Assembly: GCA_030432235.1 (NCBI GenBank)
Contig: JAUIHT010000008.1
Location: 186,001 to 250,000 of the forward strand
Length of the DNA: 64,000 bases
DNA from: Verrucomicrobiia bacterium
GTDB lineage: Bacteria > Verrucomicrobiota > Verrucomicrobiia > Opitutales > Cerasicoccaceae
Direction of reading: 5' to 3'
Part shown: in pieces, positions 7,973-58,015 of the stretch
How positions within the stretch are numbered: position 1 is the first letter of the stretch
How the letters are laid out: every line of letters starts with the position of its first letter
The notes under the pieces: generated by a model
What the model was told of the DNA's origin: nothing
What the model saw: the letters and a program-made list of their open reading frames with translations, nothing else
Databases searched by the model: none
Made by a program: the position numbers and the translations under genes

Positions 7973-8071
7973 GGGGCTATTTTTCGTGTCCGGTCTGATC
8001 GGCTTGCAAATCTCCGTCGTGTCTTATTGACTCCTCCGTGTCTTTTACCGACCAAGCAGGTTAAGTTGCCC

Positions 8072-9841
8072 ATGAGTTTGCGTTCGATTGAGTTCCCTGA
8101 AGACTTTAGCTGGGGTGTGTCCACCTCCGCTTATCAGATCGAGGGGGCCTGGAACGAGCATGGCAAAGGGCCTTCCACTTGGGATCGCTTTACCGAAGGG
8201 GAGAGCATACGAGGTCATGGGCGCGTGGCCTGCGACCACTATCATCACATGAAGGAGGACGTCGGCTACATGGCGCAGATCGGCGTCAAGGCGTACCGCT
8301 TTTCACTTTCCTGGCCGCGGATTCTGCCCGAGGGCACGGGCAAAGTAAACAAGGCGGGCATCCAGTTTTACAGTGACCTGATCGACGAGCTGCTCAAGCA
8401 CGATATTGAGCCCTGGGTGACGCTGTTCCATTGGGACTACCCTTATGAACTTTTCCTGCGCGGCGGTTGGCTGAACCGCAGCAGCCCGGAGTGGTTCGAG
8501 GAATATACCAAGGTTGTGGTCAAACACTTCTCCGACCGGGTGAAATACTGGATGACGGTCAACGAGCCGCAGTGCTTCATTGGCCTGGGATATTCCGATG
8601 GCCGGCACGCACCGAACCTCAAGCTTAACTTCGCGGAATGCCTGCAAGTTGGGCATCATGCGCTCATCGCTCATGGGCGCAGCGTGCAAGCCATTCGGGA
8701 GCATGCCAAGCAGCAGCCTATGGTCGGCTGGTCGTCTGCCGGCACCACCTACCGGCCCGAAAGTGAAGCGCTCAGAGATGTTCGTGCCGCGCGTGAGGCG
8801 ACCTTGGCGGTCTATCCGGAAAAGTTGTGGAACACCTGCTGGTGGGGAGATCCGGTTGTTTTCGGGCATTATCCTGAAGAGGGCCTGAAGGCTTACGGCA
8901 AGTCGGTTCCCAAGCACACTGCCGCGGAGATGAAGCTGATTAATCAGCCTATCGACTTCTACGGCTGTAACCTCTTCCATTGCTCTGCTGTGCGCATGGG
9001 TTCGGGGGGCATGCCCGTGGCCGTCGAGTTCAAGGAAGGCGAGCCCTTGACTTTATGCGAGTGGACTCAGGATCCGGATGTCCTGTACTGGGGGACACGT
9101 TTCCTCTACGAGCACTACAAGATTCCCATCGTCATTACCGAGAACGGTTGTTCTCAGCTTGATCAGATAAGTCTCGACGGTGGCATACACGACAGCAACC
9201 GGATCGACTTTATCGTCAGGAACCTGCTCTCCCTGCGAAGGGCGATGGAGGAGGGCGTCGACGTGCGCGGCTATTTTCACTGGTCATTGTTGGATAACTA
9301 CGAGTGGGGGCAGGGCTTTCGTCAGCGCTACGGGCTTGTTCATGTGGATTACCAGACGCTGAACCGCACGCTTAAAGACTCCGCGTTTACCTATCAGGAA
9401 ATCATTTCCACTCATGGTGAAAGCCTGCGGAAATTCATCCATACGGAGGAAGAACCGGTGCCCTATGTGGTCAAGGAAACGCAACGCTATATCGAGAGCA
9501 ACATCTCCGAAAACTTTAACATCAAAACCATCGCCGCGCGACTCAAGTGCCACCCGGATTTCCTCAGTCGGCGTTTCCGGCAATACACTGGTATCAGCCT
9601 GAGTTCACACATCCGTCGCGTGCGGTTGGAGTATGCGCGCAATATGTTACGGGATCCGAAGATTCTGATTTGCGATGTGGCCGACCGTTGCGGTTTTTCC
9701 GACCGCATTCATTTCACCAAGGTTTTCCGCAAGGAGATGGGGATGACGCCCGGGCAATTCCAGCGGCAGTTCCGCTCGCGTGAAAAGAGCAAGGACGTCC
9801 ACGTCCTTGAGGTCTCCAAGGACCCGCGCCTGATGGACTAG
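8072..9841 (+). CDS. GH1 beta-glycosidase fused to a C-terminal AraC DNA-binding domain
   Basis: I chose the ATG at 8072 (MSLRSIEFPEDFSWG), which aligns with the normal GH1 start. A TTG at 8027 would add 15 unlikely residues. The 589-residue protein has two parts. Residues 1 to about 450 form a complete GH1 barrel, a paralogue of 2035-3459, with both catalytic glutamates kept (VNEPQCF, E165; ITENGCS, E357). Residues about 465-575 form a full AraC/XylS double helix-turn-helix: FNIKTIAARLKCHPDFLSRR, then a second HTH around ICDVADRCGFSDRIHFTKVF and the usual MTPGQFQRQF end. A transcription factor whose sensor half is an apparently intact hydrolase would be a trigger-enzyme-like regulator, binding or cleaving its own inducer. 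It is the last gene of the GH1 run. Its TAG stop lies in the first bases of the inverted-repeat element at 9838. The fusion is seen directly; the sensing role is inferred. Confidence 0.9.
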   Translation: MSLRSIEFPEDFSWGVSTSAYQIEGAWNEHGKGPSTWDRFTEGESIRGHGRVACDHYHHMKEDVGYMAQIGVKAYRFSLSWPRILPEGTGKVNKAGIQFYSDLIDELLKHDIEPWVTLFHWDYPYELFLRGGWLNRSSPEWFEEYTKVVVKHFSDRVKYWMTVNEPQCFIGLGYSDGRHAPNLKLNFAECLQVGHHALIAHGRSVQAIREHAKQQPMVGWSSAGTTYRPESEALRDVRAAREATLAVYPEKLWNTCWWGDPVVFGHYPEEGLKAYGKSVPKHTAAEMKLINQPIDFYGCNLFHCSAVRMGSGGMPVAVEFKEGEPLTLCEWTQDPDVLYWGTRFLYEHYKIPIVITENGCSQLDQISLDGGIHDSNRIDFIVRNLLSLRRAMEEGVDVRGYFHWSLLDNYEWGQGFRQRYGLVHVDYQTLNRTLKDSAFTYQEIISTHGESLRKFIHTEEEPVPYVVKETQRYIESNISENFNIKTIAARLKCHPDFLSRRFRQYTGISLSSHIRRVRLEYARNMLRDPKILICDVADRCGFSDRIHFTKVFRKEMGMTPGQFQRQFRSREKSKDVHVLEVSKDPRLMD

Positions 9842-10004
9842 GCTGTGTTTTCAAACCTCCCAAACTTCGGATTCTTGTGCCTTTTCCGCCCAAAATTCGT
9901 TTTCTCAGTTCTTGGAATCTGGATTCAACTCACCTCGAAAGCCAAATTTTCGGCTGAAAAATGCAAGGCGACTCCTCGCTTCGAGGTTTGAAAACACAGC
10001 CTAG
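9838..10004. repeat. 167-bp MITE-like element with perfect 22-bp terminal inverted repeats
   Basis: CTAGGCTGTGTTTTCAAACC continues two more bases (TC) to form the left arm, 9838-9859. Its exact reverse complement is 9983-10004. The 123-base middle has no coding potential but contains a small hairpin, CCTCG-CTT-CGAGG, at 9974-9986. The arms supply the TAG stop codons of both convergent neighbours, the GH1-AraC gene (9839-9841) and the sulfatase (10001-10003). Perfect long terminal repeats around non-coding DNA, with TA at each end, resemble a miniature inverted-repeat element. As RNA the arms would pair, so it could also end transcription in both directions. No second copy was seen in this window. 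Confidence 0.7.
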
Positions 10005-11422
10005 GCCTCCGGCCAGAAGACTTTGGGCGGGCGGTTGCCGCACGGGGTCAGTTTAGCTGTATCGTACTGTAGATCCGATCTGTCTGCCAAGTGGTCAGCC
10101 ATGCGGGAACGCAAAGTCTCCAATTCGGACGTTTCTGTGGAAAGGTCGTGGCACTCGCCGGGATCTTCCTGCAGATCGAAGACCTGCTCTTCGTTGGTCT
10201 TGGGATACCAAAGGTACTTCCAGCGATCCGTAATGAGCCAGTGGCTGGTATGCTGGCCCTCGCATTGGCCGAAGAGTTCTTCACGGCCGGTCGTGGTCGT
10301 TTCCCCTCGTGCGAGTGGGACCAGGGAACGACCATGCATGGACCCGGGCACGGGGACGCCAGCCAGGTCGAGTAGGGTGGGGGCGATGTCCTCCCAGCAA
10401 ACGAGCTCGTCCGAAGAGCTTTTGTGCAGAGGCACGTTGTGACCACCGATGAAGAAGGGCACACGCGAGGAGGCTTCATACCCGAGAGACTTCCGGTAAA
10501 GCTGATGATCGCCGAGCATTTCCCCGTGGTCGGAGCTGAAAACGATGTAGCAGGGCGAGCCGGAATCGCTCGAACCATACCCGAGCCATTGCTCCAGGAC
10601 GAAAGCGATGCAGTCGTCGATCTGTTGGATAAGGGCGTAGTAAGCGGCGGTTGCCCGCTGGATGATTTCAGCGGAAAAAGGTCCGGTGGCGCTATCCGGG
10701 TGGCGCACTTGGTTGTCCGGTGACGGACACCAATCGCCCAGAGTCGCCGGAGGCAGGTCCTTGCTCAAGTAGCGTTCGAAGTAATGCTGAACGGGCACCA
10801 GCGGCGGGTGAGGATGAAAAAAGGACAAGTGCAGGAAAACCGGGCATTCAGGGTCGCGCCGCTCGGTCAGGAATTGCACCGCTTCCTGGGCCAGCCACTG
10901 GTTGTGATGCAGTGACTCGTCCATGTTCCAAGGGCGACAGAGTCGGCTGTTACTGCTCATGCCGTGGCTCTGCGGATTCTGTGTCACACCTCGGTTCCTC
11001 AGCCAGGTGGCGTAGTCGTTGCGGCTTTGCCAGGGATTGCGTGGCCGGTAGTTGGAAGTTTCCGAAAGGATGATGTTATCGAAGCCGTAACGCTTGCCTT
11101 GTGGATGCAGGTGCATCTTGCCAATGAGCTGCGTCTGATAACCAGCTTCGCCGAGGCAGCCGGGCAGGGTGGCGGGCGGGTCGAAGTCCAGCCCGTCCTG
11201 ATAACCGCGCAGGCCGTGTTCGTCCGCGCTCATGCCCGAAAGCAAGGTGCGTCGCGCGGGGATGCAGACCGGGCAGAGTGAGTAGGCCCGGGTAAAGTTC
11301 ACGCCGCTGGCGGCCAGACTGTCCAGATTGGGTGTTTCCAGAAAGCGGTTGCCGTTGATGCCGAGGCAGTCACCACGTTGTTGGTCGGTGGTGATGAGCA
11401 GGATGTGAGGACGATCGGGCAT
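10001..11422 (-). CDS. Type I formylglycine sulfatase, no signal peptide
   Basis: This is a 473-residue alkaline-phosphatase-superfamily sulfatase. The N-terminus, HILLITTDQQRGDCLG, carries the metal-binding aspartates, and C53 sits in CIPARRTLLSG, the C-x-P-x-R motif whose cysteine is oxidised to formylglycine. A second metal site is visible in SSDHGEMLGDH, and the C-terminal third has the DLQEDPGECHDL segment typical of the family. It starts directly at the catalytic domain with no export signal, so it may desulfate oligosaccharides inside the cell, unlike the exported sulfatase at 50080. It lies downstream of the GH16 gene at 11525 but behind that gene's terminator hairpin. Its TAG stop is formed by the end of the 9838-10004 element. 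The substrate is unknown; a sulfated algal sugar is the contextual guess. Confidence 0.92.
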   Translation of the reverse strand: MPDRPHILLITTDQQRGDCLGINGNRFLETPNLDSLAASGVNFTRAYSLCPVCIPARRTLLSGMSADEHGLRGYQDGLDFDPPATLPGCLGEAGYQTQLIGKMHLHPQGKRYGFDNIILSETSNYRPRNPWQSRNDYATWLRNRGVTQNPQSHGMSSNSRLCRPWNMDESLHHNQWLAQEAVQFLTERRDPECPVFLHLSFFHPHPPLVPVQHYFERYLSKDLPPATLGDWCPSPDNQVRHPDSATGPFSAEIIQRATAAYYALIQQIDDCIAFVLEQWLGYGSSDSGSPCYIVFSSDHGEMLGDHQLYRKSLGYEASSRVPFFIGGHNVPLHKSSSDELVCWEDIAPTLLDLAGVPVPGSMHGRSLVPLARGETTTTGREELFGQCEGQHTSHWLITDRWKYLWYPKTNEEQVFDLQEDPGECHDLSTETSELETLRSRMADHLADRSDLQYDTAKLTPCGNRPPKVFWPEA

Positions 11423-15426: not shown

Positions 15427-16947
15427 TTAGCTGCCCTGTATGTCGATAGAGTGTTTGTCGCCCAGGCGACGCGCAGACTCCTCCCGTCCGGTGGCCATGA
15501 GGCGCTTCAGGTAGGTGGGGCCTTCATCGCGCACATGCAAGGGGCCGCCCTCGTGCATAACGGTCCAGAGCGGGTCCTGCCCGTGCGTGGCGGTTTTTAG
15601 GCAGTCGGTCAGCCAGGTGTTGAGGATGGCCTGGCCACGTATGACCAGCTCCGGATGATCGTCGGCGAGGTTGTGCTGCTCGTGCGGGTCGGCCTCGAGG
15701 TCGAAGAGCATGTCGTCCGGATAATCATGGAAGCCGTCGTGGTAGGTTTGGATGTAAAGGTAGTGATCCCAGCGAGCGGCACGTTGCGCGCACCAAGCCA
15801 GTTGCGACAGCACCAGATGGTCGCGATGCGGATGGTTCAGTGTGCCGGACTGCAAATCTCCGGCGATGGACTGGCCGTCCCAAACGGTGGGCACATCACG
15901 ATCACAAAGCTCGAGAATCGTGGCGGCGATGTCGACGTTGTAGATCAGGCGGTCGTCGGTTTGCCCGGCGTAGTTGTCAGTCAGGCCGGGCCAGCGGACA
16001 ATCATGGGCAGGCGCGAGGTGCACTGGTCGGCGGTCTGGTGGTCACCGTAGACCCAAAGCTCGCCGAGGTTTTCTCCGTGGTCGGAGGAGATGATGATGG
16101 CGGTGTCCTCGTAGATGCCCTTGTCCTTGAGGGCCTGGATAATCTTGCCGATGTGCAGGTCGGCATAAGCCACGCCCATGTCGTAGCCATCGAACATGCG
16201 TCGGGCTTCGTCCATGCTGTCGATGGCGTTGGGTTGCAAGCGGGGGATGGCCTCCATCCAGCCGCCGAGCTCGTCGTAGGTGGCCTGGTCCCACAGGTCG
16301 AAGCCATTGGTCTCCTGGGCTGAGTGCGGGCCAGGCTTGCCCCAGTGCTCGCGGCGGATGTCCTCGTTGTACCACGCGGGTAGAGGATCATCCTTAAAGG
16401 GATTTTCCATCTCGGCGGGCGTGCGGTAGGGTGTGTGCGGGTCCCAGATGTTGACCCACATGAAGAACGGTTTCTCGTCGTCGCCCTTGCGCTCGATCCA
16501 GTCCACGACATCGGGGGAAATCCAGTTGGCCGTTTCCATGCCGTGGTAGCCGGAGTTATGCATTTCCTGGAAACCCGCGTACCAGTGCCAGGCTCCGTGT
16601 CGCTGGGCAAAGGGGGAAAACGCCACCGTGCGGTATTTCTTCGGGTGGCTGAGCAACCGGGCCAGGTTGGTTTCCGTCAATCCACAGTGGAACCCGCGGT
16701 CACGTCCCCAGTTGAAGGGTTGTGAGGCGACCCCGCCGTGGTTGACCACGCCGGTGTGAATACCGAAGCGGCCTGTCGTCATGGCGGTGCGGCTGGGCAG
16801 GCAGGGGGCGTCCGGCGTGTAGCAGTTGGTAAAGCGCAGTCCCTCCTCCGCAATGGCGTCGATGTTGGGCGAGGTGGCGCGGTGGTAGCCGTAGCAGCCC
16901 AGGTGGTCGGGTCGAAGCGAATCGATATCGATGTAGAGAATGTTCAT
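15427..16947 (-). CDS. Type I formylglycine sulfatase, cytoplasmic form
   Basis: The chosen ATG at 16947 gives MNILYIDIDSLRPDHLGCYG, the normal sulfatase start with the metal-binding aspartates. The longer frame back to 17046 adds 33 residues with no signal-like features. The protein is 506 residues. C49 lies in CLPSRTAMTTG, the C-x-P-x-R motif, and SSDHGENLGELW carries the second metal site. The C-terminal domain contains DMLFDLEADPHEQHNL. It is distinct from the sulfatase at 10001, because the region after the DHGE motif and the substrate loops differ, so it probably removes sulfate from another position or sugar. It lies 19 bases upstream of the GH106-like gene. The genes for its formylglycine-generating enzyme and its substrate transporter are not in the window. 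Confidence 0.92.
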   Translation of the reverse strand: MNILYIDIDSLRPDHLGCYGYHRATSPNIDAIAEEGLRFTNCYTPDAPCLPSRTAMTTGRFGIHTGVVNHGGVASQPFNWGRDRGFHCGLTETNLARLLSHPKKYRTVAFSPFAQRHGAWHWYAGFQEMHNSGYHGMETANWISPDVVDWIERKGDDEKPFFMWVNIWDPHTPYRTPAEMENPFKDDPLPAWYNEDIRREHWGKPGPHSAQETNGFDLWDQATYDELGGWMEAIPRLQPNAIDSMDEARRMFDGYDMGVAYADLHIGKIIQALKDKGIYEDTAIIISSDHGENLGELWVYGDHQTADQCTSRLPMIVRWPGLTDNYAGQTDDRLIYNVDIAATILELCDRDVPTVWDGQSIAGDLQSGTLNHPHRDHLVLSQLAWCAQRAARWDHYLYIQTYHDGFHDYPDDMLFDLEADPHEQHNLADDHPELVIRGQAILNTWLTDCLKTATHGQDPLWTVMHEGGPLHVRDEGPTYLKRLMATGREESARRLGDKHSIDIQGS

Positions 16948-17070
16948 CGGGTACGTGTTTATTGCGGAATGGCTTTGAACGAGCGACAGAGCATAACAAA
17001 GGACAGACGAAATCGGTGAGGCCGAAGCTGCCTCCAAGTGTGTCATTATCCGACTATCCCGGAAAGCAAA

Positions 17071-17129: not shown

Positions 17130-18380
17130 TTACCAGGGAGTGAAGGTGGTGCCAAAGACACCGAACTCGCCCTCGGCGTTGTCACCGGAGCCATCCCAGT
17201 AATCAGCCTGGAAGGTGAGGTCGCCGGTTTCGTAACCGCGGGGCATGTTGCCCACGTAGCCGCCTTGCCCCTCCAGGGACGTCACCGTGTCGTTGTCGAA
17301 ATCGACAGTGGCGATGAGGACATCCCCGGCCTCGGGGGTGAACTCGTTCTGGCCGCCGTTGTTGTCTGCGTACCATTTGTCGAGGGAGACGTTGTAGACT
17401 ACAGCGACCACATGATCGGCGTTGCCCGTCAGGACGTTGAAGCGCGTGTTGACGTCCGTGGCGCTGTACATGAGGTAGCCGCTGCCGGTTCGCCAGTCCG
17501 TTGCGCAGACGCCGTCACCGACATCGCCGAGGTCGACGGGTCCGGAGGCGCCGCCGGTGGAGTTCGCGGTGAAGAAGGTGCCCTCGACAACATAGTCGGC
17601 CTCATCACTGTCGTTGGAGCCGTTCCACTGGTTGGCAATGTAGGTGAGGTCGCCGTTGTAGTAGCCGTACATGACCCCGAACTCCACGCCCGCATAGCCC
17701 TGCAGTGAGCTTACCGTATTGTTGGTGAAATCGACGGCGGCCAGAAGGACATCCGTCGAAACCGGCGTGAAGGCGACCTGGCCGTAGTTTTTATCGGCAT
17801 ACCATTGTCCGCCCGAGTAGTAGACGGCGATGATGTGATCGGCGTTACCGGAGAAGGCGGTAAAACGGGTGGCGGTATCCTCCTCGCTGTACATGAGGTA
17901 GCCGGTGCCGGTACGCCAGTCCGTCGCGGCCACGCCGCTGTTAAGGTTACCGACATCGTAGGTGCTTCCGGCGCCGGGACCATTGGGAGTGAAGGTGGTT
18001 CCCTCGACGAAGAAGTCACCGTCGTCGCTATCGTTACTGCCGTCCCAGCGATCGGCAATGTACACCAGGTTCCCTGTGTAGTAGCCGGACGGGATGCCGT
18101 AGACGAGCTCGTTGCGTCCCTCCAGGGATTCGATGGTGTCGTTGTCGAAGTCGATCGTGGCCAGAAGTACATCCGAAGCGACCGGCGTAAACGTTGTCTG
18201 GCCGTAGTTCTTGTCCGCGTACCATTGCCCGCCGGAATAATAGACGGCGATCAGGTGGTCGGCGTTGCCAGAGAAGGCGGTGAAGCGGGTGGCGGTATCT
18301 TCCTCACTGTACATAAGGTAGCCGGTGCCGGTGCGCCAGTCCGTCCCCGCGATGCCGCTGTTGACGTCACCGATGTCGAT
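17130..18380 (-). repeat. Three tandem about 139-residue modules in the GH16 C-terminus
   Basis: Units begin with DIGDVNSG (near 18379), DVGNLNSG (near 17957) and DLGDVGDG (near 17537). Each then contains TDWRTGxGYLMYS, a GNADHxxAV strand, QWYADKN, VLLATIDF-like and SLEG segments, and an FTP end. Units one and two are very alike at DNA level, for example around the GYLMYSEED codons, which points to recent duplication. Two diverged copies occur in the neighbouring 20426-23548 protein. The fold and function are unknown; polysaccharide binding is a reasonable guess. Confidence 0.8.
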
Positions 18381-20261
18381 GGGGTCGGGATCGCCTTCGC
18401 CTTCGTAGATGCTTACATTGATGAAGCGAGCGTAGTTCTGGTTATTGACATCGTTGTCGGCAGCGATGGCCAGGTAGGAAATCGCTCCGGTATAGTAGCT
18501 GCCGATTGCGATGGGCAGCTCCATCTGTCCGCCTTCCGTTATGTAGACGTTGGCGTCCTGCCAGGCGTTACTCCATATCTGGCTGCCGGCGAGTTGGAAG
18601 ATGCGCTTGTCGTTGGTTTCGTCGTTGTCGTTCTCCAGGCCGATGCCGAGGATTTCCCCCGCGATGGCAGAATCGACGGTAAACTTCAGCACGGTGTCTT
18701 CCGTGATGGTGTAGTTGAGCGGGAACTTCACCCAACCGTTACGGCCGATGCCAAACTCGTAGCCGTTGTCGGCCAGTGCGACGGCGGCACCCTCGTTGGC
18801 GGTGCCTCCGTAGACGGTATAGTCTTCACCGAATTTGATGACGCCGTTGCTTTCGATGGATGTCGTTGTTGGCGGCGAAGTCGATTTGGTGCCCGACCAG
18901 ACGCGGACCCAGTCCACCTCCATGGTGGCGCCGTCGATGGTCGCACTGGGGGTGTTGCCATCCCAGCCACCGGTCTGCAGCGACAGAATAAGGTACATGG
19001 GCGTGTCGGCTACGCGTGTGTTGGCAAAGGTGGCGGTCTTGACGTCGTCGATATAAAACTCGATCAGGTCGGGCTCCCAATAGATGGCGTAGGTGTGCCA
19101 CTGGCTGGTGTCGTCGACGGGTGGGCGGCCCCAGGCTTCGGCCTTGTGGTTGCTGGAATAGCCGTCCCAATGACATACGTGAGAGGTGTTGGTGTTGCCC
19201 CAGACCCCGAGTGATTCCATGATGTCGATTTCCATGCCGGCGCCGTAGGTGTTCACCGTGGTGTCGTTGTTGCCGCTGCCGTAGGCTTCCCAGATACTAA
19301 GCAACACCTCGCTGCCATAGTTGGTGTTCGCGACTGTGCCACCCTTGACTGGTGCATCCGCTACCGGGTCGTAAGGAATGCCGTTAATGATCAGCACAGG
19401 GCGATCGCTCGCGTTGGTGGCTTCGCGGCTGTGGTATTCGATCCGGTTCCAGTTGCGAAGCGTGTCCGCCAGGCAGAGGGTGAAAACCTGGTCCGAATTC
19501 GCCACCTGATCGGCGATGAAGGCGGTGACATCGAGATCTACGGTCGAGCCGATTGTCCGGTTGTCGTAAGACTGGTCGAGCCAACGGGGGTCTTCGGGGA
19601 CGGGCATGTTATTCCAGGTGATGCCCGTTTCGGTCCAGTTGTCATCGTCGACGCCAAAGGCCACCGTGTTGGTTTTGGCGGTGGTGGGGCTGGTATTTTG
19701 AATACCGGCAACTTTCAGGCGCAGCACGGCACTGGTGATGGTGCCGAGGCTGGCGCTGCTGAGGTCGAACTTGAGGTAGGAGCGATTGAAGTAATTTTGA
19801 TAACTGTATATTCCACGGTCGGGCATGGTCCAGAAGGCCGGCCAGAGTCCCGTAATGTTATCCCAGCGGATGCGGGCCTCGAAATAGCCGTAGGCCTGGG
19901 TGAAGCCGGGGGTTTCGCCGTCGCGCGAATACATGCGGAAGGTGCTGATTTCTCCCGCGGAATAGTTGTAGTTTTTTCCGTTCTGGACGGCAGCTTCCTG
20001 GTGTGCGGTGAGTCGTAGCACGCCGTTAACCAATTCGATGTTCTCGCGTTTGATGGCTGCACCGATGCCGTATTCCGTGGCGGAGCCCGCCGGACTGCCA
20101 TCGTGGCTGCCTTGTCGCCAGACGGTGCCGTCCAGGATGGCGTCGTCAAATTCGTCTTCGAAGGTCAGGGAGAAACTCCCAGGAGGAGGAGCGGCATGGA
20201 GGGAGATGCACGCGCAGAGAAGCAATGCCGAAAGACATTTCGGCCAGTATCTTTTTATCAT
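17130..20261 (-). CDS. Secreted GH16 hydrolase interrupted by a permuted CBM96-like module, with three C-terminal repeats
   Basis: This 1043-residue protein has a signal peptide (MIKRYWPKCLSALLLCACISLHA). GH16 begins at FSLTFEDEFDDAILD and runs to LWPAFWTMPDRG (about residue 150). About 185 residues of another domain then intervene before GH16 resumes at GMEIDIMESLG (E344, D346, E349) and ends near WVRVWSG. The insert has NRSYLKFDLS, then WTETGITWNN, DVTAF, SREATN and VLIING, and last VKGGTVANTNYGSEVLL. These are CBM96/DNRLRE motifs, but the strand normally first in the module comes last. After GH16 comes a beta-sandwich-like region (about 480-625, with FQLAGSQIWSN and YYTGAISYLAI), then three tandem repeats of about 139 residues. 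It should act outside the cytoplasm on a cell-wall galactan or glucan. It lies 164 bases downstream of the GH16 gene ending at 20426 and has a strong terminator. Confidence 0.88.
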   Translation of the reverse strand: MIKRYWPKCLSALLLCACISLHAAPPPGSFSLTFEDEFDDAILDGTVWRQGSHDGSPAGSATEYGIGAAIKRENIELVNGVLRLTAHQEAAVQNGKNYNYSAGEISTFRMYSRDGETPGFTQAYGYFEARIRWDNITGLWPAFWTMPDRGIYSYQNYFNRSYLKFDLSSASLGTITSAVLRLKVAGIQNTSPTTAKTNTVAFGVDDDNWTETGITWNNMPVPEDPRWLDQSYDNRTIGSTVDLDVTAFIADQVANSDQVFTLCLADTLRNWNRIEYHSREATNASDRPVLIINGIPYDPVADAPVKGGTVANTNYGSEVLLSIWEAYGSGNNDTTVNTYGAGMEIDIMESLGVWGNTNTSHVCHWDGYSSNHKAEAWGRPPVDDTSQWHTYAIYWEPDLIEFYIDDVKTATFANTRVADTPMYLILSLQTGGWDGNTPSATIDGATMEVDWVRVWSGTKSTSPPTTTSIESNGVIKFGEDYTVYGGTANEGAAVALADNGYEFGIGRNGWVKFPLNYTITEDTVLKFTVDSAIAGEILGIGLENDNDETNDKRIFQLAGSQIWSNAWQDANVYITEGGQMELPIAIGSYYTGAISYLAIAADNDVNNQNYARFINVSIYEGEGDPDPIDIGDVNSGIAGTDWRTGTGYLMYSEEDTATRFTAFSGNADHLIAVYYSGGQWYADKNYGQTTFTPVASDVLLATIDFDNDTIESLEGRNELVYGIPSGYYTGNLVYIADRWDGSNDSDDGDFFVEGTTFTPNGPGAGSTYDVGNLNSGVAATDWRTGTGYLMYSEEDTATRFTAFSGNADHIIAVYYSGGQWYADKNYGQVAFTPVSTDVLLAAVDFTNNTVSSLQGYAGVEFGVMYGYYNGDLTYIANQWNGSNDSDEADYVVEGTFFTANSTGGASGPVDLGDVGDGVCATDWRTGSGYLMYSATDVNTRFNVLTGNADHVVAVVYNVSLDKWYADNNGGQNEFTPEAGDVLIATVDFDNDTVTSLEGQGGYVGNMPRGYETGDLTFQADYWDGSGDNAEGEFGVFGTTFTPW

Positions 20262-20425: not shown

Positions 20426-23400
20426 TTAAGCATCCGGTGCCTGAGGCACCTCAGGAAACATCAGCCGGAAAAAGACGGTGGGTTCGGACGCACCTGCTTC
20501 AAGCTCACGTGTGGCCGTTTGATCCGCTTCGTTAATCACTTCGTCGGTCAAGGCGGATTCCAGCCAGGTGACCAAGTCGGTGGAGTATTGCAGGCGATAA
20601 TCCAGATCGCTGATGGGGCGGGGGTATTCGATGCTGAAATCGAGACCACCACTGCTGTTGTGCGACATTGAACACTGCAGGATATTTCCCGAATCGTAAC
20701 GCATCGGGTCGGAGCCGAGCGCAAACTCGGCGAAGTTGGTTCGGCCATCATCGTCCGTGTCGTGCCAGAGGGTTCTTGCCGTAGAAGCGACGCCGGCCCA
20801 GTCACGTGCTATCCGCCAGGCATTATATAACTCGTGCGGAGTAGGTGCGTTCAGTCGAAAGGCACTGCCGGTGATACTGACCGGGCCGTCTTCGGATTCG
20901 TCTCCCCATTGATTCGGGGTAAAGCCGATATCGCCACTGAGGTAGCCTTTTCTGATGCCTTGTTCAAAGCCGTTTTCGCCGAGGTGCAAGTCCACGGTGT
21001 CATCGCGAAAGTGAATGGAGGCCAGGATGAGGTCCGTTGGATTGGGGATGAAGGCCACCGCCTTGGTGCCGCTGTTGTAGTACCACTGGCCCTCCTCGCA
21101 AAAGACAGCGACTAAATGGTCGGCGTTGCCGTCGCGTATGTTGAAGCGTGTGTTCACATTCTCGGCGCTGTACAGAAGATACCCGGTCAGGATTTGGTCG
21201 GCACTGATAGCGATGCCCTGATTGAGCGCACCGAGTTGGTAGTCACCGGATGGCAGCGGCAGAGGCACATCTGAGTGTGGCGTGAAACCGCTGCCGCTGA
21301 CGGCAAACTCACCGGCCGGATTTTCGCCGCCTCCGTTCCAGACGTTGGCGTAGTAGGCGAGGTCGCCGTCCGCGTATCCGTAGTGAATGCCCTCGTAGGT
21401 ATCGTGTTCCCCTTCCAGCGAGCTCACGGTGTCGTTGCTGAAATTGACGGTGGCCAGAAGCACGTCCGTTGGCGCGGGCTCGAAAGCGATCTGGCCGTAG
21501 TTGCGGTCCACGTACCACTGCCCGCCGGAGTAGAAGACCGCGACGACGTGATTGGCGTTGCCGTTAAACGCGCCGAAGCGACTGAAGACATTCTCCGCAC
21601 TGTACATCAAAAAGCCAGTGCCGCTGCGCCAGTCCGTGCCTGCCACGCCGCTGCCCACTGCGCCGAGCGGCACGCTTTGAGTGGTGTCCGTCCCGGCTTC
21701 GCGCAGGCGCAGGTTGCGAATGACGGCATCGATGGAGGGCTTGCTGTCGTCATCGGCGACAATGGCCAGGTTGATCATGGGGCCCGTGTAGTACTCGCCG
21801 ATGGGGATGGAAAAGGTCTGTGGGCCGGAGCCGTCGACGTAGGTGCGGTAGTTCTGGTAGGTGTTGCTCCAGGTCTGTCTGCCGCCCAGTTGAAAAACGC
21901 GCACGTTGCCGGTCTCGAGATTGTTCTCGTCCAGTCCGATGGCGAAGATTTCACCCAGGTCCGTGGCTTCGAGTTGAAACTCCAGAATCGTGTCCGGCCC
22001 GACCTGAGTGACAACCGGCAGCCGGATCCAGCTGTTGCCTTTGACATAAAACTCGGCGCCGTCCGCCGAAGGGCCGCTGAGCCCCTGAATGCCTTGCGAG
22101 CCGTAAGAGCCGAAATCGTTGCCGAAGACGACGCGACCGTCGTCTTCGACCATGGTATGGTCGCGCGTGCGCGGATCGCGTTCGCCGCTCCAAACGCGTA
22201 CCCAGTCGACTTCGAAGGCTTGGCCGTCGATGGCGGGGTCGATCTGGTCGTTGCCGTGCCAACCGCCCAACTGCATCGACAGGAGGAGGTAGGCTTCGAG
22301 ATCCGTCGCGCGTGAGTCGCGGAAGGTTCCGGTCAGCTCGCCGTCGACATAAAACTCAATCAGCCCCGGCGCCCAGTACGCGCCGTAGGTGTGAAACTCG
22401 GATGTGTCTTCAACCGGGTAGCCCCAGCCGGTGTTTTTCACGCTTCCGCCGCTGTTGTAACCATCCCAATGCAACGCGTTGGAAGCGCGTTGGCTGCCCC
22501 AAACGCCGAGGGCTTCGAGGATGTCGATCTCCATGCCGCCGTGGGTGGTGATGGCCGTATTGCCCCAGTAGTCGCCGACGTTCAGGACCGCGCTACTGCC
22601 GTGTTTGGCGTTCGGATTGCCCAGGTTGACATAGGTGTCCTCTGTTGCTTCGTGGGATACGCTGTTGATGATGAGCTGCGGGCGCAGTGAGGGCGTAGCG
22701 GCTTCCCGGCTGTGGAAAAGGGTGGTCTGTGCCTTCATCAGGGTATCGGCCAAAGCGAAGGAGATGACGCCATCGCCGTCGAGCTGACTGCTGACAAAAT
22801 CGGTCACATCGATGTCGATGACATCCCCGGGCTCCCCGATGACGCCATGCAGTTGCTTCAGGAAGAGCGGATCCCAGCTCGGCTGGGTGTTCCAGGTCAT
22901 GTTGCTTTCGCTCCAGTCGTCCGCCTCCATGCGGAAGACCAGGACGTGTCGCGCTTTGTCCTCGGCCAGCACTTCGGGGTCGAAGGAATCGATAGTCAGC
23001 CGTAGCGTGGCTGTGTCGACGGTGTTAATGGATTCCCCGGAGAGGTCGAACTTGAGGAAAGCGCGGTTGTGCCGGTACGGGTTGCCGTAATTACCACGAT
23101 CGGGCATGGTCCAAAAGGCGGGCCACAAGCCGGTGACGGACGGCCAGCGCAACCGAGCCTCGAAGTAGCCGTAGCGTTGCTTGAAGCGCCGGAAGGTGGT
23201 GATTTCCGCCCCGCCGTAATCGTAAGTCTGGGCATTCCAGACCGTGGGGGCAGTCGATGCCTTGAGCCGCAGAATGCCGTCGGACACCTCGATGTTGTCC
23301 GGATTGTTTCCGCCTTGCCCGCCGATGCCGCCCCAGTGCCCGGCCAGTTTCCATTTGCTGCCGTCTAGGGTGGTGCCTTCGAACTCGTCGGAGAAGGTCA

Positions 23401-23548
23401 TCTCCCAAGTGCCCGGTGGGGGCGTCGCGGTCAGAGCGGCTGTGTATAGTGCCAGCAGGGGGAGACAGCAGAGCGATTCCTTCGTGCCAGGGATTAAGAA
23501 ACGATGCTTACGGGAACGGACTGGGGGTGCTTGTCTGTGTGCCTCCAT
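20426..23548 (-). CDS. Secreted GH16 hydrolase with inserted permuted CBM96-like module and two C-terminal repeats
   Basis: The ATG at 23548 (MEAHRQAPPVRSRKHRF) gives 1040 residues, and its A overlaps the TAA of the upstream GH16-like gene (TAATG), so the two are translationally coupled. A signal-anchor or signal sequence lies at CCLPLLALYTAALTA. GH16 starts at WEMTFSDEFEGTTLDGSKW. It is broken after LWPAFWTMPDRG by about 185 residues (NRAFLKFDLS, SNMTWNTQP, DVTDFV, SREAATP, QLIINS, then DTYVNLGNPNAKHGSSAVLNV) and resumes at GMEIDILEALG (E340, D342, E345). A beta-sandwich region (FQLGGRQTWSN, YYTGPMINLAI) follows, then two diverged copies of the repeat found in 17130-20261. The end is DTDDDGRTNFAEFALGSDP plus about 90 residues of a C-terminal domain common on secreted verrucomicrobial enzymes. 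It is a paralogue of the next gene with the same unusual insertion. Confidence 0.87.
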   Translation of the reverse strand: MEAHRQAPPVRSRKHRFLIPGTKESLCCLPLLALYTAALTATPPPGTWEMTFSDEFEGTTLDGSKWKLAGHWGGIGGQGGNNPDNIEVSDGILRLKASTAPTVWNAQTYDYGGAEITTFRRFKQRYGYFEARLRWPSVTGLWPAFWTMPDRGNYGNPYRHNRAFLKFDLSGESINTVDTATLRLTIDSFDPEVLAEDKARHVLVFRMEADDWSESNMTWNTQPSWDPLFLKQLHGVIGEPGDVIDIDVTDFVSSQLDGDGVISFALADTLMKAQTTLFHSREAATPSLRPQLIINSVSHEATEDTYVNLGNPNAKHGSSAVLNVGDYWGNTAITTHGGMEIDILEALGVWGSQRASNALHWDGYNSGGSVKNTGWGYPVEDTSEFHTYGAYWAPGLIEFYVDGELTGTFRDSRATDLEAYLLLSMQLGGWHGNDQIDPAIDGQAFEVDWVRVWSGERDPRTRDHTMVEDDGRVVFGNDFGSYGSQGIQGLSGPSADGAEFYVKGNSWIRLPVVTQVGPDTILEFQLEATDLGEIFAIGLDENNLETGNVRVFQLGGRQTWSNTYQNYRTYVDGSGPQTFSIPIGEYYTGPMINLAIVADDDSKPSIDAVIRNLRLREAGTDTTQSVPLGAVGSGVAGTDWRSGTGFLMYSAENVFSRFGAFNGNANHVVAVFYSGGQWYVDRNYGQIAFEPAPTDVLLATVNFSNDTVSSLEGEHDTYEGIHYGYADGDLAYYANVWNGGGENPAGEFAVSGSGFTPHSDVPLPLPSGDYQLGALNQGIAISADQILTGYLLYSAENVNTRFNIRDGNADHLVAVFCEEGQWYYNSGTKAVAFIPNPTDLILASIHFRDDTVDLHLGENGFEQGIRKGYLSGDIGFTPNQWGDESEDGPVSITGSAFRLNAPTPHELYNAWRIARDWAGVASTARTLWHDTDDDGRTNFAEFALGSDPMRYDSGNILQCSMSHNSSGGLDFSIEYPRPISDLDYRLQYSTDLVTWLESALTDEVINEADQTATRELEAGASEPTVFFRLMFPEVPQAPDA

Positions 23549-25038
23549 TAAACGGTATCCTCCTTGCCCGCCTGTTTCGGTGCAGAGGCGGGCGCGTCCT
23601 GCGGCAGTTGATCGGTGCGTTGCCAGACGCGGATGTAGTCGACTTCCCAGTGATCCGGCAGGGAGCTCTCGTCGATGCTTTTGGTGCTGTGTTTGCTCAA
23701 GGGCATGGTGAGGGAGAGATAGCTGGTAACGTTGGCGATGTGCTCGCTGCGCCATTCGCCGGTTTTTTTGCCATCGACGTACCAGACCAGCCGGTCCGGC
23801 TCCCAGAGCATGCCGTAGACGTGCCAGCTGTCGCCGGTGGGGCCGTGGTACACGTAGCTGTCGCCCCAGTTTTTCGGTTCATGGGTGCCGGCCGGGCCGC
23901 CCCAACGTGTGCCGTAGCTGACGCGGCCAGGGCCCCATTCGGTCTGATGGCGGACAATGTCCATCTCCATGCCCTGGCCGTTGAAGTCGTGCGAGGTGCG
24001 ACGCTCGTGCATATTGAGGTTGTTGTCCGGACCACGGTCGGGGATAAGCCCGAAGACGATCGCCAGGCCGCGGGCCGTGGGCATCTTGGCGCGTATTTCG
24101 AAATAGCCGTAGCGTTGGGTCCACTTGTCGTAACTGGATAGCATGCCTGCGGCATAGTCGCGACGGGGCAGGGTGGGATCGTCGTACTGATGGCCCGGAT
24201 TCTTCTCGGTCGTCAGGCGCACTTTGCCTTCGTCGAGGGCTACGTTGGCGTCACGGTAGCGTTGAGCTTCTTCCCGGTGCGGCCCGATGATGGCCAAGTG
24301 CGTCGACCAGACGGAGGCGTCCACCGTGCCTGCGGTGAAGTCTTCGTCTAGGGTCAGGGTCCACGGGCCTTCGACGGGTGGCTGCTGGCCGATCCAGTCG
24401 GGCGTCTGCACGGCGATTTGGCGGTCTTCGGGCTTGCTGAAGCGCTCACGGGATTGCTCGGGGCTGGGCTCGCCGTAGGCTTTAGGCTCACCCATGCGCA
24501 GGACAGTCGCTTCCTTGGGATTCAGCAGGAAAAACTGGTAGGCGGTGATCCGGGAAGCATCCAGCGGATAGCCGGGCTTGCCGTTGTTCTGGCCGAAGAC
24601 GGAGTGGATGGTGACGGTTTCTCCGGGCTTGAGCAGGCGCACCTCGGTGTTCCAAAACTGCTCCTTGTGGTCGCCGGGATTGTCCACTCGCAAAGCGCCC
24701 CGCACGGCAGTCTCGCCCAGATTGGTCACGGTCAGCTCTATGCCGCGATAGGCTGACAGGTCCCAGCCGCCCTTCGGACAGGGGAAAGCAATCTTGGGAT
24801 AGCCGCCCGCTTCGAATGTCGCATGGATCGCTTTACCGCCCTCTGCTTCGGTTACCTCGGTGCGGTCCAGGCTCAGGGCTGCTATGCCATCGGAGGCATC
24901 CGGGGAGAACAGGACGCGCACATGCTCGCCCGGTGCGTTGGATTCGTTCGCCGTGAGTAAGGGGACAGATATACTGCACGCAGCCAAAAGTTGTAGGAGC
25001 CGTACGGTGAGGAAGGGGGGCGGACTGTTAAACATCAT
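23548..25038 (-). CDS. Secreted GH16-like protein lacking the acid/base glutamate
   Basis: This 496-residue protein has an N-terminal signal (FLTVRLLQLLAACSISVPLLTA). Residues about 35-200 match the N-terminal domain of 11525-13411, including the shared motif RVDNPGD and a similar VFGQNNGKPGYPLD stretch. The GH16 domain (about 220-475) keeps the family landmarks WTLTLDEDFTAGTVD, YGYFEIRAKMP and VDYIRVWQR. The catalytic motif reads MEMDIVRHQ: E358 and D360 are present, but the third position, normally glutamate, is R363. It may therefore be a non-catalytic binding protein or use another acid. The ending QLPQDAPASAPKQAGKEDTV is low complexity. It is the first gene of the minus-strand GH16 run and overlaps the next start by one base. 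Confidence 0.82.
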   Translation of the reverse strand: MMFNSPPPFLTVRLLQLLAACSISVPLLTANESNAPGEHVRVLFSPDASDGIAALSLDRTEVTEAEGGKAIHATFEAGGYPKIAFPCPKGGWDLSAYRGIELTVTNLGETAVRGALRVDNPGDHKEQFWNTEVRLLKPGETVTIHSVFGQNNGKPGYPLDASRITAYQFFLLNPKEATVLRMGEPKAYGEPSPEQSRERFSKPEDRQIAVQTPDWIGQQPPVEGPWTLTLDEDFTAGTVDASVWSTHLAIIGPHREEAQRYRDANVALDEGKVRLTTEKNPGHQYDDPTLPRRDYAAGMLSSYDKWTQRYGYFEIRAKMPTARGLAIVFGLIPDRGPDNNLNMHERRTSHDFNGQGMEMDIVRHQTEWGPGRVSYGTRWGGPAGTHEPKNWGDSYVYHGPTGDSWHVYGMLWEPDRLVWYVDGKKTGEWRSEHIANVTSYLSLTMPLSKHSTKSIDESSLPDHWEVDYIRVWQRTDQLPQDAPASAPKQAGKEDTV

Positions 25039-54628: not shown

Positions 54629-57600
54629 ATGCGTGCCTCTTCATTGTTATATCTTACATCTACTATTGCCTTATCGCATTTTATCATTGCAAGCCCCGAA
54701 TATCCTCAATGGTGGTTAGATGAAAGTGTGGCTGCTTCGCAGCCTCCTCCCGCATCAGGCGAAATGGGTTTCAATCAAGCTACCTGGGATGCTTGGATGG
54801 CAGGCAACTATGTGCCGGCGACGCTTGGCCAAGCCAAAAACCTCGCTCGGGCCGCATACCTGACCATGGAAGATGCCGAAGCGGGTTCCGCAGGAGCAGC
54901 AATTACCAGTATGGTAAATATGTTTTCTACGGATCCTGCGGATAATTACGTTCCCGTTAATTTGGGGCAGCTTAAAGCTATTGCCAAGCCGTTTTATGAC
55001 AGAATGCATTATACGGGCTTCACGGTTGATCTAAGTGATGGCACGACCACCATTGCTTATGGTCAGTACCCGTGGAATCCCTCCACGCCAGTAGCGAATA
55101 ACTATTTCCCCGCGAATCTTGGGCAGGTAAAACATGTGTTCTCCTTTGAATTGGATGGATGGCCACCTCTAAGCGGTGGCGGCGGCTCTCCTTCGGTAGC
55201 TTGGCTCTTGGATTATTTCGGTACAGTGAGCGTAGATCTGGATGCGGATCCGGATCAGGATGGCATTGATACGGGCGATGAGTATTCCTACGGCCTGAAT
55301 CCAGTTTATTTTGATTCCGATGGCGATGGAATGCCGGACAAGTATGAGCATGACCGAATTGCGTATCTCGATCCCTCAGACCCAGATGACGCCTCGGAAA
55401 ATCCAGATGGGGATGGCTTCACCAATTTTGACGAGTATGTCTTTGGTTTCGACCCTCAGGAGTATGACAACATTACTCGCTGGATGGACGGCGGAACATA
55501 TCACACTCTTTTGCAGGATGAAGAGGGTGTCGTCCTGGCTTTGGGCAAGCGAGCCGATGGAGCTTTGGGCATAGGTGCCCCATCGGAAATCCATAGCCCT
55601 GAAGCGATATACGATGCCCCTAAATTTGTACAGGTTTCCGTATCAACTCAGCACGCCCTAGCGCTTGGCGAGGATGGAACAGTATGGGCCTGGGGGAATG
55701 GGGCAGCTGGGCGATTGGGTCTGGGTAACAATAGTGATAAATTTGCCTTTCCCCAGAAGGTGCCCGGTCTTGCGGATATTGTCGAAATTGCCACCGGTGA
55801 TGCTTTTTCCATGGCGCTACGTGTTGATGGTAGTGTATGGACTTGGGGATACAACGTCAACGGTCAGCTCGGTTTGGGAAATACAGCGACAGCTTACGTC
55901 CCACACATGGTATCGGGTATTGATGGCATTTCAGCACGAGCGGTTTCCATTGCGGCGGGTGACAGTCATGCTTTGGCTGTTCTCGATGATTATACGGTTA
56001 AGTCCTGGGGTAGTAACGGTTCGGGGCGTTTAGGTAATAACGATACTACCCAGCAAAATGCGCCGGTTTCTGTATCTAATATCAATGGTACTACTGTGAA
56101 GGCCGTGAAGGCATCCGCGGGCTCTAATTTCTCTATTGTGCTTCTGGATGATGGGGAGCTCCTCTCCTTTGGTGAAAATGGAAATGGCCAGCTGGGGATT
56201 GGCTCCATAACAGATTCGTATGTGCCTGTCTCAGTCATTGATGGCCCTTCTGCTTCGGGAACAGCGATAACGGGTGTCATTGGCATTGCTTCAGGAAATT
56301 TGCATACAGTGGCAGTATTGACTGATGGCTCTGTTTTATCTTGGGGTATTGATACTAATGGACAGCTTGGAAATGGTGCGGGGGGAGGTAGCACCTATGC
56401 CAGCGCGGTATCTGATTTTGGCCCTATGGAACTTTATCAAGCCACTTTGGTTGGTGCTGGAGATGCATGGTCATTTGCCGTCCTTTCAGATGGTACGGTC
56501 AGAGCATGGGGATACAATGCATATGGTCAACTGGGGATTGGGGATGATGATCCGGCAAGCGAGCAATCATCTGTAGCGGTATTAACGCTCGATGACATCA
56601 TCTCAATTGATGGGGGCGATGAGACAAGTTCGGCAATTACGGAAAGCGGAGCCTTCTATACATGGGGTGTTGTTGATAGTGTAGGGGTGCTTGGTAATGG
56701 GCTGGCAAGTACCTCTTCCACCTACTATCCTTATCCTGTTGATAGCCTGGATAGTGTTGAGGTCATTTCGGCAGGTAGTTCTCATTCATTAGCGCTTAAG
56801 GACGGGGACCTTTATGCATGGGGAACAAAAGGAGTTGGTGAGCTTGGAGATCCGGCGTTCTCTACTACGGAATATAGTCCTCAGACTGTAGGCAGCATTA
56901 CGACCTGGGAGTTAGTATCTGCCGGCTCTAGTTTTTCTATTGGGGCGTATCCATCCACTACTTCCCCTTACAATACCGAGGCTTGGGGCTGGGGTGAGAA
57001 TAGTTCTGGGCAATTGGGGAATAGTGACATGCCCAATGATGCAACATCTCCTACTGTCGTTGATACGTCTGGTGGCTTGGGAGATATCCTCGCCCTTGCC
57101 GCAGGCACTGATCATACATTAGCGCTTACTACAACGGGCACGGTATGGTCTTGGGGTGACAATTCCCAGGGCCAATTGGGGCTGGGGACTACGGGCTCTG
57201 GTATGGACGAGCCTCAGGAAATTTCTTCTCTTGCAAATGTGGTGGCCATTGCTGCAGGCACTGATTTTTCAGTTGCGCTGGACGAGGATGGGGTCGTCTA
57301 TGCATGGGGGGTGAATACTGTTGGGCAACTGGGTAGGGCGAGCCCTTCCAGTAGTGCTAGTCCGCTGACCGTGTCATTGTCTATGCCTGTGGTAGCTATT
57401 GCCTGTGGGAATGCCCATACTCTTGTATTAGCCCGAGACGGAAAAGTTTACACTTTTGGCGAAGGCGGAGATGGGCAACTCGGTACAGGTGGCACCACCG
57501 TTCAGAAGACGCCAGTATTTACAGGGGTGTCCGATGCTATCGCGATTGCGGCAGGGGATACCCATTCATTGATTTTGCTAAGCGATGGAACGGTACTGGG

Positions 57601-58015
57601 ATTTGGTGCCAATAGTGATCAAATGATTGGTATCGGCAATATCAATGATAGCGGCGATCGACTACTGCCCAGAAAGATAATAAAGTTACAGGGATTTGAC
57701 TCACTGGCGGAAGGCTCCTTTCAAACAAAACTGTCCAAGTTGCACTCCGCTCTTTTAGACGCCAATTTTAACGGGCTCGATGATTCGATGGAAACTCAGT
57801 ATGGGATTTCTCTCGCTGAAAAGGATTCCGATGGAGACGGTCTGGCCAATTATCTTGAGCTGCAATTAGGTACAAACCCAATGCGAGCCGATACGGATGG
57901 GGACGGAGTGAACGATGGTCAGGATGCTTTCCCTCTGAATGCGGATTTATTTAATGCGGGTTTTGGTAGCCCATCAGACACCACAGCCCCAGTCATTACT
58001 CTGCTCGAACCTTAA
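54629..58015 (+). CDS. Secreted RCC1 beta-propeller protein with calcium-binding-like repeats
   Basis: This 1128-residue protein has a signal sequence (LLYLTSTIALSHFIIA). The N-terminal third has three copies of an NYxPxxLGQxK motif (about residues 60, 106 and 155), which I recall from verrucomicrobial proteins near Rhs genes. Acidic thrombospondin-type-3-like repeats follow (DADPDQDGIDTGDEYSYGLN, FDSDGDGMPDKYE). Then come 14 RCC1-like repeats from about residue 295 to 1000, for example TVWAWGNGAAGRLGLGN, SVWTWGYNVNGQLGLGN and TVWSWGDNSQGQLGLGT; 14 repeats would give two seven-bladed propellers. Another D-x-D-x-D-G segment follows. The protein stops abruptly in TAPVITLLEP, where homologues continue, so its C-terminus may be truncated. 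The next start, the Rhs gene, is 32 bases on. Confidence 0.85.
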   Translation: MRASSLLYLTSTIALSHFIIASPEYPQWWLDESVAASQPPPASGEMGFNQATWDAWMAGNYVPATLGQAKNLARAAYLTMEDAEAGSAGAAITSMVNMFSTDPADNYVPVNLGQLKAIAKPFYDRMHYTGFTVDLSDGTTTIAYGQYPWNPSTPVANNYFPANLGQVKHVFSFELDGWPPLSGGGGSPSVAWLLDYFGTVSVDLDADPDQDGIDTGDEYSYGLNPVYFDSDGDGMPDKYEHDRIAYLDPSDPDDASENPDGDGFTNFDEYVFGFDPQEYDNITRWMDGGTYHTLLQDEEGVVLALGKRADGALGIGAPSEIHSPEAIYDAPKFVQVSVSTQHALALGEDGTVWAWGNGAAGRLGLGNNSDKFAFPQKVPGLADIVEIATGDAFSMALRVDGSVWTWGYNVNGQLGLGNTATAYVPHMVSGIDGISARAVSIAAGDSHALAVLDDYTVKSWGSNGSGRLGNNDTTQQNAPVSVSNINGTTVKAVKASAGSNFSIVLLDDGELLSFGENGNGQLGIGSITDSYVPVSVIDGPSASGTAITGVIGIASGNLHTVAVLTDGSVLSWGIDTNGQLGNGAGGGSTYASAVSDFGPMELYQATLVGAGDAWSFAVLSDGTVRAWGYNAYGQLGIGDDDPASEQSSVAVLTLDDIISIDGGDETSSAITESGAFYTWGVVDSVGVLGNGLASTSSTYYPYPVDSLDSVEVISAGSSHSLALKDGDLYAWGTKGVGELGDPAFSTTEYSPQTVGSITTWELVSAGSSFSIGAYPSTTSPYNTEAWGWGENSSGQLGNSDMPNDATSPTVVDTSGGLGDILALAAGTDHTLALTTTGTVWSWGDNSQGQLGLGTTGSGMDEPQEISSLANVVAIAAGTDFSVALDEDGVVYAWGVNTVGQLGRASPSSSASPLTVSLSMPVVAIACGNAHTLVLARDGKVYTFGEGGDGQLGTGGTTVQKTPVFTGVSDAIAIAAGDTHSLILLSDGTVLGFGANSDQMIGIGNINDSGDRLLPRKIIKLQGFDSLAEGSFQTKLSKLHSALLDANFNGLDDSMETQYGISLAEKDSDGDGLANYLELQLGTNPMRADTDGDGVNDGQDAFPLNADLFNAGFGSPSDTTAPVITLLEP

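Follow-up and report, generated by a model that had tools for sequence, protein, structure and literature searches.

A gene in the window, the whole 64,000-nucleotide stretch of Verrucomicrobiia DNA that was analysed, encodes a GH16 glycoside hydrolase whose catalytic domain is interrupted by a CBM96 carbohydrate-binding module with its strands in circularly permuted order. We consider it reasonably probable that the protein is a laminarinase-type GH16 endo-glucanase with a CBM96 permuted into its negative-subsite loop, most likely once, and that the groove of the module faces and extends the catalytic cleft. The gene (20426..23548, minus strand, as are all of its parts) encodes a secreted-type protein with the insert and C-terminal repeats, and it lies in an open frame from 23755 to 20426, in which the methionine at 23548 is residue 70. 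GH16 part 1 (23093..23425, residues 111-221) ends in GLWPAFWTMPDRG and is followed by the inserted module (22538..23092, residues 222-406), after which GH16 part 2 (22178..22537, residues 407-526) begins with the catalytic motif GMEIDILE (22514..22537, residues 407-414; E409, D411 and E414). The GH16 domain (residues 111-526) therefore has a break of 185 residues between GLWPAFWTMPDRG and GMEIDILE. The body of the CBM96 was placed first within the insert (22661..23092, residues 222-365, canonical positions approximately 37-163), and the canonical N-terminal strands, EDTYVNLGNPNAKHGSSAVLNVG, were moved behind it (22574..22642, residues 372-394); these moved strands are the counterpart of the Lys10-Lys27 stretch of the CBM96 prototype. 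A C-junction, DYWGNTAITTHG (22538..22573, residues 395-406), then leads to the catalytic strand. An earlier note on this DNA had placed a permuted CBM96-like insertion at 22535-23100, between WTMPDRG and GMEIDILEALG. The peptides it quoted from the insert are all present, in order, in the minus-strand open reading frame, and the measured position of the insert is 22538-23092.

The same architecture was observed in a sister gene (17130..20261, minus strand), in which the permuted CBM96 insert (19239..19811, residues 151-341) separates GH16 part 1 (19812..20192, residues 24-150) from GH16 part 2 (18885..19238, residues 342-459), and in which the Pfam CBM96 profile was matched at positions 37-163 of 164 (E 7e-25). 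The earlier note had described the 20426-23548 protein as the second, diverged paralogue with this insertion, and the two inserts do differ strongly, being 36% identical as compared with 55% for the GH16 parts. Four inserted GH16 proteins are encoded in the source genome, two in the window and the others on contigs C18 and C42. Both window proteins also carry C-terminal repeats of about 130 residues (TGYLMYSxEDxxTRF...GNADHxxAV; 17130-18800 and 20426-22100, minus strand), for which no strong Pfam match was found.

Several lines of evidence agree that the insert is a CBM96 in circularly permuted order, with the body first and the canonical N-terminal strands last. In the 20426-23548 protein, Pfam CBM96 (PF24517) matched profile positions 39-163 only (residues 229-364, E 6e-24), scoring 85.1 bits for the whole protein and 92.8 bits for the insert alone against a cut-off of 26, and Pfam GH16 (PF00722; 60.2 bits against a cut-off of 22) matched in two stretches that flank the insert. 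The copy on contig C18 gave Pfam matches to both halves of CBM96, with profile positions 37-163 ahead of 3-39. In the 20426-23548 protein, the tail of the insert matched residues 15-48 of PDB chain 8wab and the body matched residues 53-187, so the strand order is swapped in the insert; comparison with 7vbo gave the same swap, but there the N-terminal (tail) piece was below noise when taken alone. The linear order of the family, with the DTYV strands first, is absent from the insert. When the inserts were re-ordered in silico to tail-body, all four inserts of the source genome gave a single Pfam match covering profile positions 6/7-163. The gain in PF24517 score was small (1.5-3.9 bits for the four inserts) because the moved tail is short, and what the re-ordering shows lies not in the gain in bits but in the merging of out-of-order pieces into one continuous match.

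A tandem pair of CBM96 domains that had lost complementary halves, or an ordinary CBM96 that had been mis-parsed, would require no permutation, and CBM96 arrays elsewhere do give matches made of a body plus the N-terminal strands of the next domain (G139:C47). We regard this explanation as very improbable, since only a single body and a single pair of N-terminal strands are present and the insert, modelled by itself, forms one closed domain (pTM 0.86). Tandem CBM96 fragments were rejected as the present state, because re-ordering gives one run and the insert alone is modelled as one domain. A tandem CBM96 pair is nevertheless a likely starting point for the permutation, and the insert as it now stands is permuted by whichever route it arose. 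In a PF24517 profile search of the 10 genomes of the family, the 13 matches that start at profile positions 35-41 all coincide with full-length GH16-insert loci, and one further match (G008:C11:35959) starts at 34 at a place with no full-length GH16-insert match. A candidate for a free-standing permuted CBM96 outside GH16, on an Adhaeribacter plasmid (84% of the query), proved to be a canonical CBM96.

The predicted structures are consistent with two complete folds, one nested in the other. AlphaFold2 models of the GH16 domain with its insert (pLDDT 89.2, pTM 0.88) and of the insert alone (pLDDT 88.6) were compared with the PDB by VIA among Foldseek's top chains. The GH16 part has the beta-jelly-roll fold of the family and aligned with ZgLamC (4crq; Z 29.0, rmsd 2.5 A, 218 of 231 residues), and in the model it closes around the insert. 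The insert has the beta-sandwich fold of 7VBO and aligned best with 8wab (Z 14.5, 2.3 A, 135 residues) and 7vbo (Z 13.0, 2.4 A, 137 residues, model residues 2-143 on 7vbo 29-179); the next structures followed at Z 8.9. These alignments span only residues 2/3-143/145 of the model, and the last 40 residues were left unmatched in sequential order. The strands that remain, at 145-148, 151-156 and 169-174 of the model, are the moved ones. The pTM of 0.88 for the two-domain model suggests a fixed mutual arrangement of the GH16 domain and the insert. Pfam, the swapped PDB matches, the re-ordering and the insert model therefore all agree with the permuted CBM96-like insertion claimed in the earlier note.

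The insertion point follows the WPAFW strand and precedes the catalytic strand with ExDxxE. In the corresponding alignment of ZgLamA (4bq1), the loop that precedes EIDILE is GEQYGNAEWPACG, and in GH16 enzymes the loop with the WPX motif flanks the negative subsites of the cleft (PMC6827312, in excerpt). The insert therefore appears, from this alignment and that excerpt, to replace the negative-subsite loop, which bears out the claim that the module sits beside the active site. Of the GH16_3 pattern WPA...WPX, the WPA is present in the 20426-23548 protein and the WPX segment is the portion replaced by the insert. An ordinary laminarinase-type paralogue in the source genome has the short loop PSENVYGIWAASG at this site, and the YG of that loop is found again directly before the insert (Y and G each in 28 of 31 sequences). 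The position of Trp397, before the catalytic strand, is aromatic in all 31 (Y 16, W 14, F 1), and this residue may have taken over from the WPX tryptophan that the insertion removed. The catalytic residues have been kept throughout: E, D and E of ExDxxE are present in 31 of 31 sequences of the GH16 alignment, and the motif was invariant in 22 of 22.

The layout was sparse in the phylum. Fourteen full-length matches were found in 6 of the 10 genomes of the family, a number which, like the four copies in the source genome, is far above what chance would give. A sample of 387 genomes from the phylum contained 7 with full-length matches (10 when partial matches were included). A scan of named genomes, covering at least 585 stretches, gave at least 25 loci, at least 20 of them full-length and five not (L081-L085). 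Among the matches listed, the full-length loci belonged to Opitutaceae, Puniceicoccaceae, Methylacidiphilaceae, Spartobacteria and Cerasicoccus, and further ones to Kiritimatiellae, Phycisphaerales and other Planctomycetota. Three of 294 sampled Planctomycetota genomes carried the layout, all three already among the loci of the named-genome scan, and the other 291 gave no further example. The same interruption, which the earlier note had proposed to look for in other Verrucomicrobia and Planctomycetes, is thus present in both and rare in the latter. One Rariglobus genome carried five inserted GH16 copies. After removal of duplicates, the 39 loci collected gave 31 distinct domains, which span Verrucomicrobiota, Kiritimatiellae and Planctomycetota. 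No stop codon was found inside any listed full-length match of the family, phylum, Rariglobus and Planctomycetota scans. Both points on which the earlier note had let its proposal stand or fall came out in its favor: the layout occurs in other genomes, and folding of the module is predicted.

Two of the loci also carry ordinary CBM96 modules. At L041 (contig C4 of genome G002), a single GH16 protein combines a permuted insert with a C-terminal CBM96 of the ordinary kind and so offers an internal control made by nature, and at L081, in an Opitutaceae metagenome-assembled genome, an insert-free GH16 shares its open frame with an ordinary CBM96.

Phylogenetic analysis favored a single insertion. 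The inserts formed one clade against 25 ordinary CBM96 domains (support 98/96), and did so again against 22 ordinary CBM96 domains in a tree of the body only (support 99/98), from which L019, L021 and L060 were left out. The GH16 host tree with all 55 rows needed two changes, and a single host clade, at a p-AU of 0.496, was not rejected; support for one host clade was 79/80 when four long, distant or intruding plain rows were left out and 90/90 when seven were. The partial GH16 rows L070 and L108 were left out of all trees. The host tree thus gives moderate support for a single origin. Distances between inserts and between their host GH16 domains were correlated (Mantel r 0.825), and none of 2000 shuffles was as high, the best reaching 0.22. 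The simplest history is likely to be one insertion followed by co-inheritance with the host, plus duplication, loss or some transfer. An assembly or recombination artefact was rejected, given the many genomes, the single CBM clade and the co-divergence of insert and host (r 0.83), in line with the earlier view that the layout is old.

Loop length between the WPAFW and catalytic strands varies in ordinary, insert-free GH16 paralogues, and an old insertion tolerated by such a loop might have been carried along as a neutral or decaying passenger without function. The substitution rates speak strongly against it: the dN/dS of the inserts was 0.04-0.27 in 8 of 12 pairs, the other four being saturated, and was similar to that of GH16 (0.03-0.17 in its 8 measurable pairs), so the inserts appear to be under purifying selection where this is measurable. 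In addition, the listed full-length matches are uninterrupted by stop codons, and 31 distinct sequences retain the insert at identities as low as 26%. We give a functionless passenger hardly any probability. The inheritance of the layout across several bacterial groups suggests a useful role.

The position of the cut indicates what that role could be. The alginate groove of TM6-N4, the CBM96 of alginate lyase Dp0100, is built by Lys10, Lys22, Lys25, Lys27, Lys31, Arg36 and Tyr159, and the R36E substitution abolished alginate binding (PMC9971899, in excerpt). With a chain-to-paper numbering offset of 16, taken from the KSST run in the alignment with the PDB chains, the permutation cut falls between the counterparts of Lys27 and Ile37, and the VIA alignment begins at 7vbo residue 29. 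We infer that the CBM96 was opened inside the stretch that builds the sugar-binding groove of the prototype. In the mechanism that we propose, a CBM96 beta-sandwich would have been inserted, permuted, in an ancestor common to Verrucomicrobiota/Kiritimatiellae and some Planctomycetota, or would have spread early between them. The permutation would have shifted the cut point of the module from its natural termini to the loop between the Lys27 and Ile37 counterparts, within the groove-forming stretch. Both chains that cross into the GH16 domain exit from the groove side, and the groove region should therefore, from connectivity, face the cleft. It would then lengthen or wall the cleft at the non-reducing-end (negative) side and could hold a glucan chain past the ordinary subsites. 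That the permutation was selected to re-aim the CBM, making groove and catalytic cleft one continuous substrate track in a composite active site, is a more tentative proposal, which we think somewhat less likely to be right than wrong.

The residues of the groove itself have changed. In that alignment, the counterparts of Lys22, Lys25 and Lys27 in the 20426-23548 protein are A389, N392 and G394, and the window proteins have not kept these alginate-binding lysines; across the 31 inserted sequences, the Lys27 position is K or R in 17. These lysines define the ligand of the prototype, not the CBM96 sequence family. Because they were not kept, the groove may bind nothing. The junction segments were also more variable (mean entropy 2.38 and 2.01 bits) than the body (1.72 bits; 31 sequences), whereas a binding surface under strong constraint should vary less; the position that is always aromatic is the exception.

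These observations leave room for a role without sugar binding through the groove, in which the insert would act as a steric lid or gate that narrows the negative-subsite end and alters the mode of action, towards shorter products or an exo-like or branch-excluding attack. The insert's place at the loop that flanks the negative subsites, the rigid arrangement suggested by the high pTM and the loss of the alginate-binding residues would all fit such a lid. Some 180 residues are, however, a large price to pay for a lid, and purifying selection on the whole insert with retention of the CBM96 core also argues against it, yet both are compatible with a structural role; we judge the lid to be rather unlikely, if the strongest of the rivals. 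A conventional targeting function, with the module as a tether to insoluble glucan or algal wall and its site and permutation a harmless accident of origin, seems to us a little less likely still. The inserted CBM58 of SusG, which matters for insoluble starch without contacting the catalytic domains (PMC5735674, in excerpt), is a precedent for it, as are the canonical CBM96 modules appended elsewhere in GH16 proteins (L041, L081). The high pTM of the two-domain model instead argues for a packed rather than a free module, and the presence of both kinds of CBM96 in the L041 protein suggests two different jobs. Extension of the cleft by the groove is the reading that we prefer over both.

Laminarin as the substrate is supported by the nearest structures to the GH16 part, which are laminarinases (among Foldseek's top chains), and by GH1 neighbors. 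GH1 was the commonest neighbor family, with 6 of 87 neighbor ORFs at 20 related loci; these 87 were chosen from 110, and the 23 left out were inserted-GH16 ORFs and some overlapping or doubtful frames. The copy on contig C18 adjoins a GH1, another GH16 and a possible GH81, the last resting on one weak match (6fop, E 0.0033) with no Pfam match at 1e-5. The window holds two GH1 genes. One of them (8027-9841, plus strand) encodes a GH1 beta-glucosidase with intact NEP and TENG motifs fused to a C-terminal AraC-type DNA-binding domain, an enzyme that may double as a regulator. The same fusion was observed beside inserted GH16 genes in two Cerasicoccus species (L071 5169-6956 and L072 5234-7021; 57-59% identity to the window protein). 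Two sulfatase genes are interleaved with the GH16 genes of the window (10001-11422 and 15427-17046, minus strand), hinting at a sulfated glycan, and a neighboring protein in the window has a weak, partial rhamnosidase match; the substrate may therefore be a non-laminarin, sulfated or mixed glycan. A neighboring GH16 paralogue (23548-25038, minus strand) has GMEMDIVRH in place of ExDxxE, with the second Glu changed to Arg, and a degraded WPAFW strand, and is probably catalytically dead. Further along the window, a long RCC1-repeat protein with a bacterial TSP3 repeat is encoded at 54629-58015 (plus strand).

With the alginate lysines lost, the ligand of the insert probably differs from alginate, which was judged unlikely as a ligand, and is probably a beta-glucan. 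Net charge is of no help on the alginate question, because it does not set inserts (mean -8.5) apart from canonical CBM96 domains (mean -10.2). A related family, CBM80, has broad beta-glycan specificity (2026 paper, PMC13235733, in excerpt).

Comparison with known systems places the insert in the sequence family and fold of the CBM96 prototypes, TM6-N4 (7VBO) and the chondroitinase CBM (8WAB). It differs from both in being permuted and nested inside an enzyme domain rather than in line, and from TM6-N4 in that the window inserts are without the alginate-binding lysines. The 20426-23548 protein shares its fold and ExDxxE motif with the GH16 laminarinases ZgLamC, ZgLamA and RmLam (GH16_3 according to the literature), whereas the WPX loop before their catalytic strand is swapped here for a whole domain. 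A GH16_3 laminarinase of Maribacter (Flavobacteriia) is also interrupted, by a putative glucan-binding domain related to the laminarin-binding protein BfSGBP-B, but that domain is a different one in a different loop (after beta-sheet 5, LamC residue 81), and no permutation is mentioned in the excerpted text (PMC11345257). In the alpha-amylase SusG, a CBM (CBM58) is likewise nested in the catalytic region of a glycoside hydrolase; SusG differs in being a GH13 with an unrelated CBM that protrudes without core contact. The circular permutant CP90 of a CBM21 is also a permuted CBM, with improved binding, but from the excerpt it was apparently laboratory-made and not inserted in an enzyme (PMC3511584). 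Searches of open-licence PMC papers found no report of a CBM96 within GH16 and none of a naturally permuted CBM, whether in an active-site loop of a glycoside hydrolase or elsewhere. CBM insertion and protein permutation were each known already, and their combination here is new to the literature searched.

For annotators the layout carries a warning: searches return the GH16 domain as two separate pieces and a CBM that lacks its first strands, so that automatic pipelines may under-call the one as well as the other. Because genomes with the permuted insert also contain ordinary CBM96 modules and GH16 paralogues without an insert, nature has provided a clean experiment, in which one can directly test how the insert influences substrate length, branching tolerance and processivity.
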